Origin: Phymorhynchus buccinoides
Taxonomy: Eukaryota; Mollusca; Gastropoda; Neogastropoda; Raphitomidae
DNA length: 64,000 nt
Direction: 5' to 3'
Assembly (NCBI GenBank): GCA_017654935.2
Contig: CM065691.1
Location: 27,946,455 to 28,010,454, forward strand
Made by a program: the position numbers and the translations under genes. Under the pieces are notes generated by a model, which worked only from the letters and a program-made list of their open reading frames with translations, did not search any database and was not told where the DNA came from. Position 1 is the stretch's first letter. Each line of letters opens with the position of its first letter. Positions 4,501 to 54,195 of this stretch are shown here, piece by piece.

Positions 4501-7500
4501 AATAACGTCACTTTACACTTGTGTGCTTGTTTGTTTGTTGTATGTTCCAGTGACGTTGCAGTCTGTTTCAGTTTATTGTCCTGATCAGCTTAGCAGAGGA
4601 CTCTTAAGGCATAGAGAATTCTAGGACTTAAAATTCCACACCTGTATTATAGAGTTTAAATGTATGTAATCAAAGAATGTCTATCAAGATTTACAGCAGA
4701 ACTAAATTTCAACAGTGTGCACAAGTGAATCTTCAAATGAAATTGATACACCATTTGATTTTAACAACATTCTACCTTTAATCCTTCCCTCCCCCGCAAC
4801 AAAAGTGAAACAAAAAAGCTAAATTGACATGGATCAAACAAATACATGGGTGCAACTCCCCAAATGGCAAAATGAAAAAAAACTGAAAGGCAGGGGTCCA
4901 GGGACCCTTGGCTCTGGCAGGGTACAGGGGCAGAGCCCTGTTGGACGATTCAGGGGGGCAACTTAACTTTTCTACTACCGTCGGCGGGTTGACCCGCCGG
5001 TTTACCGTATACCGTTGCTAGCCACGGGCGGGTTTGACCGCCAGATACTAGGGAAACCCCGGTGTCCCCCTTTGCGCTATTTATATCAAGTGACATCACA
5101 TCCTTTACTTCCGTGACATGCGCAGTTCGCTCAGGGAAAGCCCAATCTTCCGCCATCTTCATTTGTAGGCTAAATTTTGTAATTTTCAATCGATTTTCGT
5201 CGCGTTTTCGATGATGGAAACTGACAACTTTTGGCGTGAACCTCTACAAGATGGCGATAGTGCCGACAAAGCATTTACTGTGGAAAAAGTGGCAGAATCT
5301 GAACTTAGGCGAATCAAAAAGAGCATCGAAAGTGTTGAAACGATCTTGGGTTTGCAGCAGCAGATCGACACAGGTAAATTTAGTGATGATTCGAGCGAGT
5401 ATTTTTTTAATGGATTTTTTAAGAGAGTACGTGCGAAAATCAGTGCAGCGGCAAAAATTACTTGGTGCGCAACAGTAAACAGTCTAAGTAATACTTGGTA
5501 GCAGAAGAGTTAAGAGAGAGAGATACCGAGATAGACAGACAGTTAAAATGATAGACAGAGACAGCTTGAGTCTGATAAGCCTTGTAAAATTATTACATTG
5601 CCTTTGCAAACTTCCAAGATAGAACAACTAGACTAAGTTCAAAACGTCCCAAATCACTTGTGGTCAATTTTTGTTTGTTTGTTGTTGAAATTTTAAAAAA
5701 CTGAAGTTCAGTTTCTGGTAAAATTAAAAATACTGAAATCAGTGTAAACAATGAAAGAGTAGCACCCGTGCTAATAACTGACTGCAAGAACAAACACAAC
5801 TACATGCGTAGACAGACTTTTTCCGTGACTTTCTGCGTCGGCGGCGAGAACTCGGCCCCTCATTCCCACTGTCACCGGAATAGACGTGGGATTCACTGTC
5901 ACTGCTGCTGCCACTGCTGCTGCCACTGTTGTATGAGCGATCCGTCTCATCGTCATCAATGAAAGACTCTTCGTCATCAAATTTTCCCTGTAATAAAGAA
6001 AATAGAAATAATTTTCATCACATTTTCCCTGTAATAAAGAAAATAGAAATTATTTTCATCACATTTTCCCTGTAATAAAGAAAATAGAAATTATTTTCAT
6101 CACATTTTCCCTGTAATAAAGAAAATAGAAATTATTTTCATCACATTTTTCCAATAATAAAGAAAATAAAAATTATTTTCATCAAAGTTTCCCTATAATA
6201 AAGAAAATATAAATTATTCTCATCAAAGTTTCCCTATAGTAAAGAAAATATAAATTATTCTCATCAAAGTTTCCCTATAGTAAAGAAAATATAAATTATT
6301 CTCATCAAAGTTTCCCTATAATTAGGTGGCGGCTGGCTCTTCTTACGGCTACCACGCTTGCCGTCAAAATCGTAAACAGTGACTCACTTAAAAGTTGTCA
6401 AAGTTGGATTAAACTTCACTTTTTATGTTTTATGTTATACAGAATTAAAGATGAATGATTATTCTTTGCTCTCGTTGTTTTGTTATATTTGTGTGAATGA
6501 GAAAAGTGTGTTTAATTTAAAACCAAAAACACGGTAAAAACCGAAAGTTTGACTGCCGCAGTGTTTCCCGAGTTTCGAGCAAGATCACTGACCGTAAACA
6601 AATCACAGAAGCGGTTTTTTAAAACTGCCAATGCACATAAATAACCCATCAATGGAAAGCTCAAAACCTCTACTTTGTGATGATGGGGGGTATTTTTTAA
6701 AGAGATTCCAATATCATGGCCAAAAAAGCGTTTTAAAAATGTAAATAAATATTTCGCAACCTTCCACTCGCCGAGGCATGTCATGCCGGATATCATTTTA
6801 AAGCTCAGCCAATGAGCAACCAGAATACATCAAAAGCAAGGCGAAACGAAGACTTGGGAGAGAGCCGCGCGAAATATACCGCGGCATGTGATTGGTCCGT
6901 TCTCTCAATAGAGTGTTCGTCATGGCGTCACCCAGCAGAGATCAGATCGCTAAGAATTTCGCCACGCTTCGCCCATTTCTCGGTAAGTTTGACAATTAAA
7001 ACACTATCGATCGATAAACTGATCATTAAGGAAACGAATTCATAGCATAGTTCCTTTAATTAAATTATATAATTTGTAATAGTTTCGTTTGAAGTGAGCC
7101 ATCGCTTCGACGGCAAGCTAGGCTCCATCGGACATAGCCATTCATAGACGGTGTGCCCAATCGATGTAAAAATAAAGGCACTATTTTGTTGAATTACGTG
7201 TATTGAGCTACTGTGCCGTTGAAATTAATGTTTCTCTGATTCAGGTTTTTTTTCTTTAGCAGTTTTGACGCGATTTGATATTTTAAATAATATTTCTTAT
7301 CGAGCTATCGTTTCGCCCAAGGGACATCACTCTTATCGAAATACTTGTTTGCTCGATGTTTCGATTCGAAGCCTTCGACAAAGGAGCAAAAGCTGAGGGT
7401 TTTGAAGAACACTATTGCCTAGAACCCGATTTAAAATGCAACATAATGCAATAAATACGTTATTGATGAGCCTGTGACTCTTTCAGGAAGTTGCATTTAG

Positions 7501-10500
7501 GTTTTACATCAAGAAGTTGAAGTTGAAGGTTTAAACTTGTAGTGTTGCAAAACATGTTATTGTTAAAGAATACCCCCCCCCCCCCTCCCTCCAATACACA
7601 CTCACATGCATGCATGAATGCATTCTCTCTCTCTGACACTTTTTCATAAGATTATATGGGTTTTAACTAGAAATAGTAGAATGCACCCTCTCATATTGCC
7701 ACTCACACACATTAGTGTACACATTTATGTACACAATGTGACACACACACATGCACACCCTCATGTACACAGTGTGACATACACACACACACACAATAGT
7801 GCACACACTCATGTGCACAGTGTGACATACACACACACACTCATGTACAGTGTGACACACACACGCACTAGTGACTCATGTACACAGTGTGACATGCATG
7901 CACACACTCATGTACACCATGTGACACACACGCATGCACACACTCATATGTACAGTGACTCACACACTCTGGAGGACACTTGCATAAGATGATGTGTTTT
8001 TTTCTTTCAGAGGATGCAACATATGGTGATTTAAAATTGGCGTTCTTTGCACAAGGGCGTGGAGCTAGGAAGAAGATAACTGGGCTTCAGTTCAACAACA
8101 AGCTTATGCTACAGATGTTTCTCCTTCGAGAAGATGGATCCAAAACATGGGCTGACACTGAGAAATTTGTTATGAAGTTTTGCGGCGATGCACCTCCACT
8201 GAGAATTAAAACTGTGATAGAAAGCAGTGCCACAGCTGTTGGAAAACTGAACTTAACATCCATTGCTGAAGATGATTTATCAAAATTTTTCCTGACTGAA
8301 GTTCAGATCCACCAAGGGGTTGGATCTTTTGCGTCTGACATCGGATTAAGTGCAGATAATTTAAGAGACTTGTCTTTTGATGCTCTTTGCTCACAGCCCT
8401 CCAACGGACTTGTTCTAGACCTGGAAAAATTTAGAACAAAAGAACATTTGGCAGCTAGTTCTATCCAGGCATGGTTAAATAAGCTCACAAGGCTTGACCT
8501 TCCCATGCCATTTTTGAGAAAAAAATAAGAAAAAATGAAGCAAGAACAGGCCCGTCTCAGGAAAAAAGGCAGTGGTGGCAGTGACGAGATGAAATCTTTC
8601 CTCTCCAGCAAATTTCCATTGCCAGGTGACAATCCCACAGTAGGTTCTTGTAGTGTAGGCTCAACAACATCATCACCTGCTTCGACCATTGGCCTGAAAC
8701 TGGGTACCCAGGCAAATGAACTGTCTGCTGTCAAGAGAAAGCTTGAAGACACCACCAAACAGCTGGAGAACTCCACAATTGTAGGTAGCGTCTTACACGA
8801 TCAGCTTCAAGAGGCCAAATCTAGGGGGGAAAAACTGACGACGGAAGTTGAACAATTGTCAGAAGATCTTGAGGTGACAAAAGAAACACAAAGCACCCTT
8901 GAAAAAGAAAATGTAGAGTTGCAGAAAAAGGTTAACACATATGCCAAAGGAACAGTCAAGAGGACACTTGATAAAACAACAAAACAGTTGGAAGAACAGA
9001 GCAAAGTGTGCAAAGATCAAGAACAAAACATTCAAGATCTTCAAAATCAAAAGGGTAATTTGAAAGAAAAATATAAGAGACTTCAGCTTGACATAGCAGA
9101 ACTTAAGAGGAGATATCAAAGAAACCAACAAAGACTGGCTGAAGCCCAAGCTGAAGCTGAACTTCAGCCAGAGCCAATGGATCAAGATGAGATTCATGAG
9201 ATCCGTCTCAAGGACGAAAGAGGACATTTTATTCCAGATGCCATCAAATGTGTGATGGCTTTGATAGGTGAATGCGATGTTCCTGCCCATAGATGTGGAG
9301 ATGTGATAAAAACTGTTGTAAGTTATGTTTGCCATGCAACAGTACCAGAGACAGATCTGCCATCACAGCGTTCTGCACTTCGGTTTGCAGACAGGGCTCA
9401 CGTAATTGGAAAAGCCCATGTTGCAGAAACTGTGGTAACAGCAGACAATTTTGATTTTCATGCTGACGGAACAAGCAGAGGAGGCCGCAAATTTGTAGGT
9501 CAGCAAGTGACTGTAGAGGGACAGTCCATGTCACTTGGATTCATCCCTGTTGCTGTTGAGGACGCTTCGACGCTGGTCGAAATCAGCATGAAGATTCTTG
9601 AAGAACTCTCTGATTTAATTTTGACACCAGATGAAGCACAAGAAAATTTTGTAAACATTTTACAAAATTTGTCAGGGGTTATGAGTCATGAAGTCATGAC
9701 TTCTGTCATGAAGTCATTTGGCAAGGAATTGGAAAAGGAGAGGAAACAACTGCTGCAGACTGATGAGGAGCTCCAGTTTCTTCACTGTAACGCTCACTTC
9801 CTTCTGGGACTGGGATCTGAAGCAAAGAAGACACTGACACAAGCCTACAAAGAAGCAGCTGATGCAGCGGTTCCAGGAGGAGAAGAAGCAGCCCAATGCC
9901 ATGGCTTCGATTCTACAATTGTCAGGTATCTGTCTCCCTCTCTTTCTCTCATAGTTTAAAAAAAAAACCTGAAATCAGTGTATACTCCTTGCACTTGAAT
10001 GAACATCTCCCTAGGACAACACATGCCCAGGATTTTTAACACATACACACTTAACTTTTGCTGATGCTATTAATAGTATTATGGGCCAAATGGCCTGCAA
10101 AAACTGAATTAAACACATTGCTATAGTTATTGTTACACATACACTTTTTGTAAACGAAAATGCTCATATTGCCTTTGGCAAGTCTAAAATCTTTTATTTA
10201 CAAACTGAGCTTGGTTTGAAAAGCCCTATTCTGACTGTTGCAGATATATCTACATGGCATGTGATTGTCTTGGACCCCGTGGTGACGACAGATCAGGATG
10301 CAGAGATGTCTGGGTAGCCTTTTGCAGTATGATCGAGAGACAGTCAGCCATCACAAGCTTCCGTGACAACCGGTTTAATAACCTCTTCCAGGCAGCAGCC
10401 AGCCTTCACTACCATCGCCAGGACATCCAGGACTGCCTTGGTACTTTCTTGAAAACTCGCAACAGGAAAATTCAGATGGTCTTTGATGACTGCCAGAGTG

Positions 10501-13500
10501 ACCAACTAGACTGCCAGCTGATTGCTCTTGGTCTTCTTTACTTCTGGATAACTGGTATGTATCCATGACATTAACTTAAATTTCATAGTTATCAATCATT
10601 CAAAGTGATAATACAGTTCAAAGTTGTTAACCATTCAAAATTAAAGCTATCAGAAATTACATACACTCAATTAAACTTCTTCTTCTTCTGCATTCCCAGG
10701 TCATACATAATTATGATCATAATGGGTAAGGTACATATGTGTCCGGTTTTCAGTTTTCACTGGTCTCCTCGCTGCGTACAGCCGACACATTCCAATTTCA
10801 CTTGCTTTCAGTTTCTGTTTCTATCAATGTGAAATGGAAAAAAAGCACTGAACTGAGTTTTGACCAATTAATTTGATTTCTAAAGCTTATTCTTTTCCCT
10901 GTGTGTGTGTTTCAGGCCCATACTGGAGTCTGTTGGGAAAGTCTCTGCATTACTTGGACTTCTACCTAGAAGTGGCAAGGCTGCAGACCGTTCTGAAGGA
11001 ATGGGAGGAGGATGCTTCGCCAGCATTAGAACAGAATTGGTTTGCAGTGTTTCCTGGAATCAAGTTCAATTTTGACCACAACATCTTTGCATCTCTGAGG
11101 AATGTGAATGATGACACTAAGCAGAATGTAAAAGGTCTTCTGCAGAAATTGTGCACTGCATTTTTGTTAGTCACTGATCGGCAGTTGAAAGACTTTTTGC
11201 CTGGTGGTCGATACCATAACGTCCAAGACCCAGAACTTCGGGAAAAGATGTCCCATTCTTCTCTCACAAACCTTGTTGGAGAACAATGCTTCGGGGACTT
11301 GGACTTTTCCATGTACAAACGTCGCAATGCCACCCTTCATCATCATTCCACAGTCAACATGTTGAAAAGGAACAAATCCATATCAACTTGGCTGGACCAC
11401 AAAGATGAACACGAACAGCGGGAGTTACTACACCTTGCCGCTGTGAAGTCTGCGTCTCTGCGACGAGAACACCAGAACATGGAAAAAGAGGCCATCACCA
11501 GAAAAAAGGAACAGCTTCTGGAACTACAGCAAAAGAAGAGGGAGATGGAGATTCGAAAAAACCAGCAAATTGCAAACATTGGGAACGCTCTCATGCATCA
11601 CAGAGGACCATGCAAATCAACTGCAGATGTGCAAAATCTTCTTGATTTTTACAACACAAACGGCGGTATACAGAAAGCCTTAAAGGCAGAACTTCAGTAC
11701 CAGAAAGTGGTGCTGAAAGTGTCCTCCCCGTTCTTAAAGAAAGTGACGGGAACTGCCCTCTTTCTCTTCAACAACCTGATGCAGGTTTTTGGTGGAAATC
11801 CTGTGACACAGCTACCACCCCTTCGGCATGCAGACGTAAATCAAGCTCCGCGGGCAAAGTGTCCCAGGCTGCACCCTGATGAGTGTGAGGAATCTGAAGA
11901 TGATGAAGAAAGTGATATGGAAGAAGAGACAGACGTTGACGAGGACTCTGAAGGTGACGATAGTGATGCTGACAATGATGCTGAACAGGCTGAAGAATTG
12001 GATCAGTTTGGAAACTTCACTTTTACGCTGAAAGGGGAAATAGTAGCAGTGTACTATGATGATGACTACTACATTGGAACAGTGGTTGATTTTGAAGAAA
12101 AAGAAGAGGAGTCGGATTACAACTGGGCAGAGATCAACTTTATGGAAAAAACAACCATCCTCATCAAAGGAAAGAGCAGATTCAGATGGCCCAGTCGCCC
12201 TGACAAGTTCAGGGTGTCATCCAAGTTTGTGTTTGCGGAATCGCTCAAAATAGGTCCATCGTCCTACTCGGGCCGCATCTATGCTGTGGAGGAGCCAAAA
12301 GATCTGGAAGACAGATACAAGACATACAAAAGATTGTGTCAACAGTTTTAAGCCAACACATCTATGCATGATTTTGTAAGTGAAAAGTAACTCGACCCCA
12401 ACTCCCCCCACTCCCCTGTACCCTCCCCCCTTATTCTCCTCTTCCCTCAGCCATCTTTAAAGTGGATATTGGTTTTATTTCTAATATAGTGAATACATTA
12501 TCAAAAAGACACATGCAAACTGTGAAAAATGACATTTTAAAAGTTGTTGCCGAATTTCAGCTTAATTGGTCAATTTGTTCAAGAGTTATGACTAATAATG
12601 TTGTTCACTTGGTCGGATGGGACCATTCCGCATGGGCGATTTTGGCATTTTTTCCAACTTTGAGACCCCACCAAGTGATTGTTTCTTTACATATCAGCCT
12701 GAAAAAAAAATAGGCATTATCTGCACATACAGGAGACTTCATATAAACAATTCTGAAAGATTTGGATGATAAATGGTGAAGTGGCTGGACTCTAAACATG
12801 GCTTGTCATGTAATTTCGCCACTCGTCAGACGTGATTTTCCCCATATTTGAAGGTGTGTAATTTCACAACTAATGATCTTATGATTATGGTTTTATGTGG
12901 GCTTGATCTCCTGTATGCATAGAATAAGTATATGAAGACTTGTGTCTGTATTTTACCATTTGTGCATTTTGTAGATGACTAAAGTTGGCCTTTTTCACGT
13001 TCTGGACGCTCTTTTCAAATGCGTCAATTTTTAAAATGCTATATTTTCAAAACTAATCAAGATATGAACTTAATTTTTTTTTTTATAAGGTTGGTTTGAT
13101 CAAATCTTTTAAAAATCAACAAAAAATATGAGTAAATATTGGTATCAAGTTTTGTCTTGCCGCCACCTACTATAATAAAGAAAATAGAAATTATTCTCAT
13201 CAAAGTTTCCCTATAGTAAAGAAAATAGAAATTGTCAATGTCACAAGTCAGGGGACCAGGTACGCTGAACTTGTACTACACGCATGCACATCTACACCAA
13301 CGCTTATTATTTATTACGAGAGAAGCGGCGGGAACTATTGTTTTTGTTTCGTCCTTGCGGCATCCGCCCGTCTGTGTGCAATCTTGACCATGAGGGAACT
13401 TTGCACCCGCCCAGGTTCAGCTTTGTTTGGGGTTTTTTTTGTCTTATTTATAGATCACTTATTCAGTCACAAACTGTACAAAGCATACTCAAATTATATC

Positions 13501-16500
13501 ACTTCCAAGGTAGAGATATTTCATCGTAGCAACAGAGGTATTTTTAGACTGCTGCAAACTACAAAGAATTTACTCCATAATAAAATCCTTGTTACCAATA
13601 CTCAAACATCTGACAGTGATTTTCTTTCATATTCAAATATATATATATATCGAAAAGCTCCATTGCACTTGCAAATTAGGAAAGTGTTCTTAGTAAGCCA
13701 ACAGAAGACATAAAACATGGGAATTAAGCACAAGGTAGATGCTAGCAAGGAGCCAGTTTACTAGTAGTGTTTGTTTTTTATTATTAAACTGCCTGCTGTA
13801 CAACATTTCATACAGTAGAACTAGAAGGCTACCCTGTACTCCCACCTCCCCCTCAATCAAGTGTTTCAGTCCTGAGCTTCCTAAGAGTGTAGGGAGTTCA
13901 GGGCAAAACAAAACCAACTGAGTGAGGCATCTGCTCTAACGCAATTCTCCTGTCCAGCTCTCCAAAGTTTCCCTGCACATAAATTACCACTAATCTACAT
14001 TCCATACAATCTTCTTTAAACAAACTTTCTCTCTAATAAATCCAGTCACCTTATTCTGATCCCTGATCTCTGCCATCTTGAGCACCCAGGGGTGTGTCCA
14101 GATCTTCATGAGGTTCTGGTAGTCCTTGAAGAGGCGGGCCCCCTTGGAGGTGATCTGCCCATCGATCTGCCCACTGCGGTCCAGGTACTCTTGGTACAGA
14201 GTCATCTGCATCTCCGACAGGCGTACCGAGATCACGTACTCCTGCTTCGGCGGCAGAAACTTGGTCAGTGCTGAGTAGTCCCGCCGCTATAAACAAACAA
14301 ATGTTTTTTAGTAGTTGTTTTTTTCCATTACACAAAACATTGAATACACACAAAGAAGTTTTCTTCAGCTCCTTGTTTCTTTCTCGCATACCCATACCAA
14401 CCAACTGGTGGTCTGTACCCTCTCCCACCGTCACTGACCTGCACACAGCCTGCCAGCAGCTCGTGCAACACGTGGGCCCTCTGCTTCATGGTGTGCACAC
14501 CCCAAGTACTACCTTACACAGCACCACCTCCCACCGTCACTGACCTGCACACAGCCTGCCAGCAGCTCGTGCAACACGTGGACCCTCTGCTTCATGATGT
14601 GCACACCCCAAGTACTACCTGCTACACTGTACCACCTCCCACTGTCACTGTCACTGACCTGCACACAGCCTGTCAGCAGCTCGTGCAACACATGGGCCCT
14701 CTGCTTCATGATGCGCACAACCAAGTACAACCTTACACTGCACCACCTCCCACTGTCACTGACCTGTACACAGCCTGCCAGCAGCTTGTGCAACACATGG
14801 GCCCTCTGCTTCATGATGCGCACACCCCAAGTACCACCTTACACTGCACCACCTCCCACTGTCACTGACCTGTACACAGCCTGCCAGCAGCTCGTGCAAC
14901 ACATGGGCCCTCTGCTTCATGATGCGCACACCCCAAGTACCACCTTACACTGCACCACCTCCCACTGTCACTGACCTGTACACAGCCTGCCAGCAGCTCG
15001 TGCAACACATGGGCCCTCTGCTTCATGATGCGCACGTCCCAAGTACCACCTTACACTGCACCACCTCCCACTGTCACTGTCACTGACCTGTACACAGCCT
15101 GCCAGCAGCTCGTGCAACACATGGGCCCTCTGCATCATGATGCGCACACCCCAAGTACTACCATACACTGTACCACCTCCCACTGTCACTGACCTGTACA
15201 CAGCCTACCAGCAGCTCGTGCAACACATGGGCCCTCTGCATCATGATGCGCACATACCAAGTACTACCATACACTGTACCACCTCCCACTGTCACTGACC
15301 TGTACACAGCCTGCCAGCAGCTCGTGCAGCACATGGGCCCTCTGCTTCATGATGCGCACGTCCCTGCCGGTGGAGTCAGAGTGCTGCCCGTTGATGATGG
15401 GGTTCACGAACCGGTTGGCAAACTCCTTCTTCGTACCCAACAGGTTGGGCTTCACAAAGTCCACCATGCAGTGATCTGAACACAAAATTGATCCGTTACA
15501 AATCCATGACAAGTCTTCAAATCTTGCAAACTTTTCAGGTAAAGTTGCTAGCAGAAAAAAAACAAAGAGAAAGAAAAACTGATAAGACTCCCTCCCTCGT
15601 CCCCTTCATTCCTACCTATGAGTGACCACATTCATATCAGACTATTCTGCCGATCTGCTGAAGAACCCTTACATTATGGAACGGCAAAAACGAGACAGAG
15701 AAAGACAGACAAACAGACAGAGCTTGCTGAGAAGACGTTCAACACAAAGGTGCTGCTGAGTGACAGTCCTGGCCTGCACAGGTTTGTAGACCAGGACCTG
15801 TATTCACATCGAGATAGTACGAGACTTATCGTCATACCTTAGAAGTCAACATTTCTGAAAACATAACAGATAGAATGGTGTCCCCGGATTCTTTGGTATA
15901 AATAGTTCCCCCACCTTCTGGAAGTTCTGTGCTTGTAACTTCCTCTAATCTCTTTCTCTTTGACTCTGCCTTTTCTCTTTGCTTATTGTCATCTACCATC
16001 TTTCTGCCTTACCAGTCCATTCACCTGCCCTTTTTTCACAAAACATTTTCAAAAAAAAATTCCTCCAGCCGAAGTCGGACTTGCTGGGCCTAACTATTTC
16101 TTAGTTAGGCGCATAACGGCAGCATGACGCATCTGCGCTCATAATTGACAGGAAACTGTCTGAGCGATCGAAGATGAAGAAGAAGAATGGTGTAGGATGT
16201 GGGGGAGCAAGGGGTGAAAATTCAAAAAACCCAAACTGACACTCTATCAAGCTGTTCTGCAGCGGTGTTCCAGTGAGGACCACCCTGCGCCTGGTCTTGA
16301 TCTGGTTCATGGCCTTGGAGACCGCCGTGGCCGCATTCTTCATCAGGTGGCCCTCGTCACACACCACCAGGTCAGGGCCTGCACACGTCAGTTCACAACC
16401 AAATATATAATGTGTGCGTGAGCGTGCGTGTCTGCAGGGCTCCCAATCGTTCCACAAAACAAGGGGTCCCAGGAACTCCTTCACTTACAGTATAGAGGGT

Positions 16501-24132: not shown

Positions 24133-54195
<30,063 letters not shown>

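Follow-up and report, generated by a model that had tools for sequence, protein, structure and literature searches.

The hAT superfamily of cut-and-paste transposons usually has terminal inverted repeats (TIRs) that start YARNG and an insertion domain in which an R-W motif has a role, and Galileo, of the P superfamily, has a target-site duplication (TSD) of 7 bp. The hAT target pattern is nTnnnnAn (available passages of PMC10368747), and, according to excerpts of PMC12730594, short TSDs occur in hAT5, hAT6, and fungal hAT7, hAT groups with 5, 6, and 7 bp TSDs are known, hAT7 has a 7 bp TSD, twenty hAT7 families bear TET/JBP genes, and Zisupton (KDZ) has an 8 bp TSD. Dada has a 6 or 7 bp TSD and a C/DxxH motif (excerpts of PMC8869645). 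Here we compare with these systems a 6,847 bp element at positions 6323..13169 (+ strand) of a 64,000-nucleotide stretch of the genome of the gastropod Phymorhynchus buccinoides (assembly GCA_017654935.2, contig CM065691.1, positions 27,946,455 to 28,010,454, forward strand; hereafter 'the window'). We conclude, with high but not full confidence, that the element represents a DNA transposon family with ends TAGGT...ACCTA, a 7 bp TSD, and a DDE (Asp-Asp-Glu) transposase predicted to have the fold of the housefly hAT transposase Hermes, a hAT lineage that has likely diverged too far for our tests to find a sequence match.

Element ends and target-site duplications

The ends of the element are defined by an exact 11 bp TIR, TAGGTGGCGGC, at 6323..6333 (+) and 13159..13169 (−); within the 64-kb window this sequence is found, at up to one mismatch, at both element ends only (dinucleotide shuffles average 0.33). 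The element is flanked by exact 7 bp copies of CTATAAT, at 6316..6322 and 13170..13176, and lies in a 41 bp tandem array (5974..6322, resuming to the right of 13169; detected with Tandem Repeats Finder). Fusing the flanks over a single CTATAAT regains the exact 41 bp register, and CTATAAT is therefore a genuine target duplication. Three further full-length copies in the same genome (2.12 Gb), L009, L010, and L011, have the same termini as the window copy, and the four copies are 99.4–99.9% identical in pairwise comparison outside gaps. A sequence-only reading of the window, which had proposed a DNA transposon with true ends at 6323 and 13169, exact 11 bp inverted termini, and a 7 bp duplication, is thus confirmed in these respects, and the search for other copies that it recommended returned copies ending identically and not, as it had said would count against it, copies ending elsewhere.

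L009 has an exact TSD, CATGATT, and an uninterrupted frame of 1,237 codons, L010 has an exact TSD, CTAATAT, and an uninterrupted frame of 1,238 codons, and L011 has frame-breaking deletions. The right end has at least five matches in the genome (all genome match counts given here are lower bounds), and, since these comprise just the four copies and one 92% identical relative, the family seems to be small and young. The open frames of L009 and L010, nearly identical sisters of the window copy, suggest that the family jumped recently. On contig C3082, at 6.17–6.52 Mb (L012–L016), the leftmost ~830 bp of the element, interrupted by ~300 bp of other sequence, occurs in several repeats with a shared flank, likely a segmentally duplicated block.

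The same signature is observed for other families of the genome. A search with the exon 4 protein gave at least 93 matches, many of them within open frames of 1,000–1,270 codons, and ten genome stretches were examined, corresponding to nine element loci plus L030, an extension of L027. Family A (L024, L025) has a 14 bp TIR, TAGGTATTCCAAAG, and TSDs CAGATAG and GTAGTAG, the latter, being repetitive, matching at length 4 too. Family C (L026, L031, L027) has inward-read ends TAGGTACTCC and TAGGTATTCC, perfect over 6 bp only, and TSDs CTGGGAC and ATACAGT. Family D (L032, L033) has a 10 bp TIR, TAGATGGGAC, and TSDs CAATAAA and CTCATAG. Family B (L028, L029) was excluded, its right end being unresolved. 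These two loci, whose element start reads TAGGTGTGTCC, are examples of seven equal-scoring matches on C2, C7, C12, C22, and C31 having open frames of 570 residues that cover the C-terminal half of the protein only; in L028 and L029, NRFNN and E are present and D-D is absent from the 570-residue frame.

Across the window family and families A, C, and D, an exact 7 bp duplication is found in nine of eleven two-ended copies. The nine TSDs are nine different 7-mers, in contrast to the many Dada elements that target small RNA genes. L026 lies inside a tandem repeat, and the neighboring repeat unit provides its empty site, which matches at 26 of 30 positions for a 7 bp join and at no more than 10 of 30 for joins of 0–6 or 8–12 bp. 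T occurs at position 2 in six of the nine TSDs and A at position 6 in seven (binomial 0.024 and 0.004, given the base frequencies of the window; a small sample, n = 9, counted at these positions with the hAT target pattern known beforehand). The terminal pentamer is TAGGT in three families and TAGAT in one. Families A and C encode proteins with ~30% identity to the window frame. In the tree (D not included; midpoint-rooted, the rooting being a guess) these two families fall in the half opposite the window family, which suggests that the 7 bp stagger and the TAGRT termini are ancient within the clade.

These results bear on the alternative explanation that there is no transposon and that a host gene is flanked by short inverted repeats through chance. 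The gene of the window copy is spliced, with four exons, as a host gene might be, but several near-identical copies occur at sites that are not related to each other, where TSDs and empty sites are seen, and dozens of related open frames occur in the genome; we regard this explanation as wholly improbable.

Transposase gene and predicted architecture

The transposase gene comprises four exons on the + strand, 6922..6982, 8011..9925, 10244..10554, and 10916..12351, with compatible phases giving one joined frame, as the sequence-only reading had seen, and with a splice map identical to that which keeps L009 and L010 open. Exon 2 encodes the N-terminal domain, the coiled coil, and the first half of the RNase-H core; exon 3 encodes part of the insertion domain, with an NRFNN motif at 10368–10382; and exon 4 encodes the remaining insertion domain, the catalytic Glu, the C-terminal region, and the terminal stop. 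The earlier reading gave a protein of 1,240 codons, but an intact frame of this length is not confirmed: it overlooked an in-frame TAA at codon 193 (8526..8528), and a second lesion, at 9687..9699, consists in loss of the second catalytic Asp, that of M-S-D-R, together with insertion of two codons. M-x-D-R, mostly MSDR, is present in all 15 first-round homologues. Each lesion is found in the window copy only (0 of 3 other full-length copies), and, in view of the stop codon and the lost catalytic Asp, the window copy is likely dead, that is, makes no active enzyme. It would be mobile only with protein supplied by a sister copy.

The predicted catalytic positions are conserved. The first Asp, D506 of the joined frame, lies in a DGT motif (9465..9467), at the end of strand 1 in the predicted model, and is D in 52 of 52 aligned homologues; the second Asp position is D in 51 of 52; the Glu, E885 (11281..11283), lies at a helix start in the model and is E in 52 of 52. 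A C-x2-H motif, CNAH (9786..9797), follows the second Asp, its C and H being invariant among the 52, and the R-F of the RFN motif in the insertion domain is likewise present in all 52. We predict that D, D, and E form a DDE catalytic triad and that the protein is a DDE transposase, with, in the model, an RNase-H core whose fifth strand is separated from the catalytic Glu by a helical insertion. The predicted structure thus bears out the RNase-H-like core that had been read from the letters; of the 'ADGT/C-x-A-H' signature assigned to it, the ADGT Asp is conserved, and 'C-x-A-H' is really C-x2-H.

The core is accompanied by three further parts. An N-terminal all-helical domain (8013..8495; AlphaFold2 mean predicted local distance difference test score 91.8) matched no fold when its model was compared with solved structures; it carries a basic stretch, GRGARKK here and GRGRRP-like in relatives, and, since a transposase must bind its own ends, this motif makes it likely that the domain binds DNA. 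A coiled coil, with approximate limits 8730..9210, is indicated by coiled-coil-only matches and by helices in the model of a relative. An acidic stretch and a C-terminal β barrel, predicted from strands in the model (11872..12351), complete the protein; the barrel gave no significant match to Pfam or PDB sequences and looks SH3/Tudor-like in the model. According to the mechanism we propose, the transposase would multimerize through the coiled coil, the N-terminal domain would bind the element ends, the DDE site would excise the element in the hAT manner, leaving hairpins on the flanking DNA, the element would be joined to a target cut with a 7 bp stagger, preferably with T as the second and A as the sixth base, and the acidic stretch and barrel would provide contacts with chromatin.

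Proposed kinship with hAT transposases

Structure comparison shows that the predicted fold of the catalytic core matches Hermes. The likeness comprises the predicted RNase-H core with a Hermes-like helical insertion, the order D-D-E with CxxH after the second D, and an R-aromatic-N motif, and extends to a target duplication of several bp having T near its start and A near its end, as in hAT. A predicted RNase-H core with an insertion would also liken the family to the P superfamily (P element, Galileo), as would the 7 bp TSD of Galileo. The protein differs from Hermes in having ~1,240 residues as compared to 612, with an extra N-terminal helical domain, a long coiled coil, an acidic region, and an SH3/Tudor-like C-terminus, and in that neither a BED finger nor a Pfam dimerization domain was seen in the snail family.

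Several results weigh against assignment to hAT, or against parts of our conclusion. With respect to ends, L011 lacks an exact TSD (flanks cctgatgg vs. ccgtgatgg, differing by one extra base), L027 has an altered left end and shows no TSD, the duplications are of 7 bp where hAT usually has 8 (groups with 5, 6, and 7 bp being known), and the TAGGT and TAGAT termini agree with YARNG at no more than four of five positions. With respect to protein, homologue P0048 carries N at the second Asp, and the invariant R-F of the family corresponds to R-W (TRWNS) in Hermes. Alignment of the family profile to Hermes with hhalign gave no match (probability 0.3% and 0.06%) and a score below the median of 40 shuffles, Hermes being a single sequence and the test therefore weak. 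In a motif-block comparison, weak for the same reason, the true site in Hermes ranks 1 of 596 for the CxxH block, yet 48% of shuffles score equally high, and the other four blocks place the true site 12th to 45th, with none beating shuffles. (The Hermes catalytic residues, which we take to be D180, D248, and E572, have the letters D, D, and E confirmed at these positions.) In Pfam searches with 37 of the 52 aligned members, the best 25 of 29 weak matches (E ≤ 0.1) include no transposase family, and neither the hAT dimerization domain PF05699 nor BED, the four remaining matches being no better than E 0.069; further family members and own-genome frames likewise gave no transposase family in Pfam, and a control search found Hermes (PF05699, E 4e-25).

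The fold match to Hermes also favors a rival account, in which the family belongs to the hAT superfamily in the plain sense, Repbase already lists it as a hAT, and the bridge sequences are missing from our searches only. The example command in the available passages of PMC4455052, which pulls hAT entries labelled '7-bp TSD', suggests that such entries exist, and short TSDs are described for hAT5, hAT6, and fungal hAT7 (excerpts of PMC12730594). However, the Pfam and Hermes-profile results above, the latter against a single sequence, speak against this account, and hAT7, which resembles the snail family in being hAT-type with a 7 bp TSD, was grouped by its author with fungal and plant hATs (PMC12730594, compared by description only). 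We consider this account a serious candidate that nonetheless falls short of being probable. The sequence-only reading had called 7 bp unusual; the length was right, but 7 bp is already known in fungal hAT7 (PMC12730594, in excerpt) and Dada has 6 or 7 bp (PMC8869645, in excerpt). By description only, the snail family resembles Dada in having a 7 bp TSD, within the 6 or 7 bp of Dada, and in having CxxH. We consider it unlikely that, among CxxH transposons in the broad sense (hAT, P, MuDR, Kolobok, Dada), the family forms a cut-and-paste superfamily of its own with no special closeness to hAT.

We conclude that the family, read as a diverged hAT lineage, is a real family, probably active recently, in a deep lineage for which no name was found, and possibly a new superfamily. 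The earlier view that it fits no named superfamily holds for Pfam, which names none among the best 25 of 29 matches, and does not hold for the fold, which is Hermes-like. The family is not described in titles or abstract openings of the literature searched, Repbase entries being outside the search. We advance, tentatively, a broader proposal: a superfamily-level new branch of animal cut-and-paste transposons, distributed across molluscs, nemerteans, annelids, and echinoderms and active until recently, that would combine a hAT-fold engine beyond sequence recognition with TAGRT termini, a 7 bp stagger, and an SH3/Tudor-like chromatin-reading tail guiding insertion.

Distribution, significance, and neighborhood

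A core profile search detected 128 proteins at E ≤ 0.001. Among the 120 listed, hosts include the molluscs Littorina, Nucella, Gigantopelta, Patella, Plakobranchus, Elysia, and Sinanodonta, the nemertean Lineus, the annelid Lamellibrachia, and the echinoderms Anneissia and Acanthaster, with the remaining matches mostly on ENA, JGI, or other contigs; the viral and prokaryotic collections searched yielded no family members. Eight listed Nucella relatives share 93–99% identity with P0052 in the matched region (86% for a ninth), and recent multiplication is therefore likely in Nucella too. In two automatic gene models of Nucella lapillus, P0107 and P0108, the transposase is fused to domains of host genes (a CW zinc finger; EMC1), likely representing insertions merged into host gene models, or possibly real fusions.

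In public animal genomes, proteins of this family, including those of the two Nucella models with host domains, are entered as 'uncharacterized' or 'hypothetical', so that a name for the family would tidy gene sets. The family would extend the hAT fold far past recognized sequence space; as a natural variant with a 7 bp stagger, it opens the determinants of stagger length to structural test; its predicted chromatin-reader domain offers a handle on site choice by DNA transposons; and its near-identical open copies are candidates for a new gene-transfer tool of lophotrochozoan origin.

Intron 3 contains a ~120 bp interspersed repeat (10676..10799, +) with three other copies in the window (38183–38300, 45782–45889, and 24540–24647); the copies are 75–84% identical, have no match in Rfam, and are likely a short interspersed nuclear element. 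Adjoining the element on the minus strand, an exon-like frame at 16104–16484 has an SNF2-related domain (Pfam E 1.3e-12), ATRX-like by eye, and is a host gene. Long tandem arrays lie at 14422–15359 (106 bp unit), 30624–31730 (43 bp), 42081–43157 (32 bp), 46579–47646 (73 bp), and 52429–53172 (49 bp).
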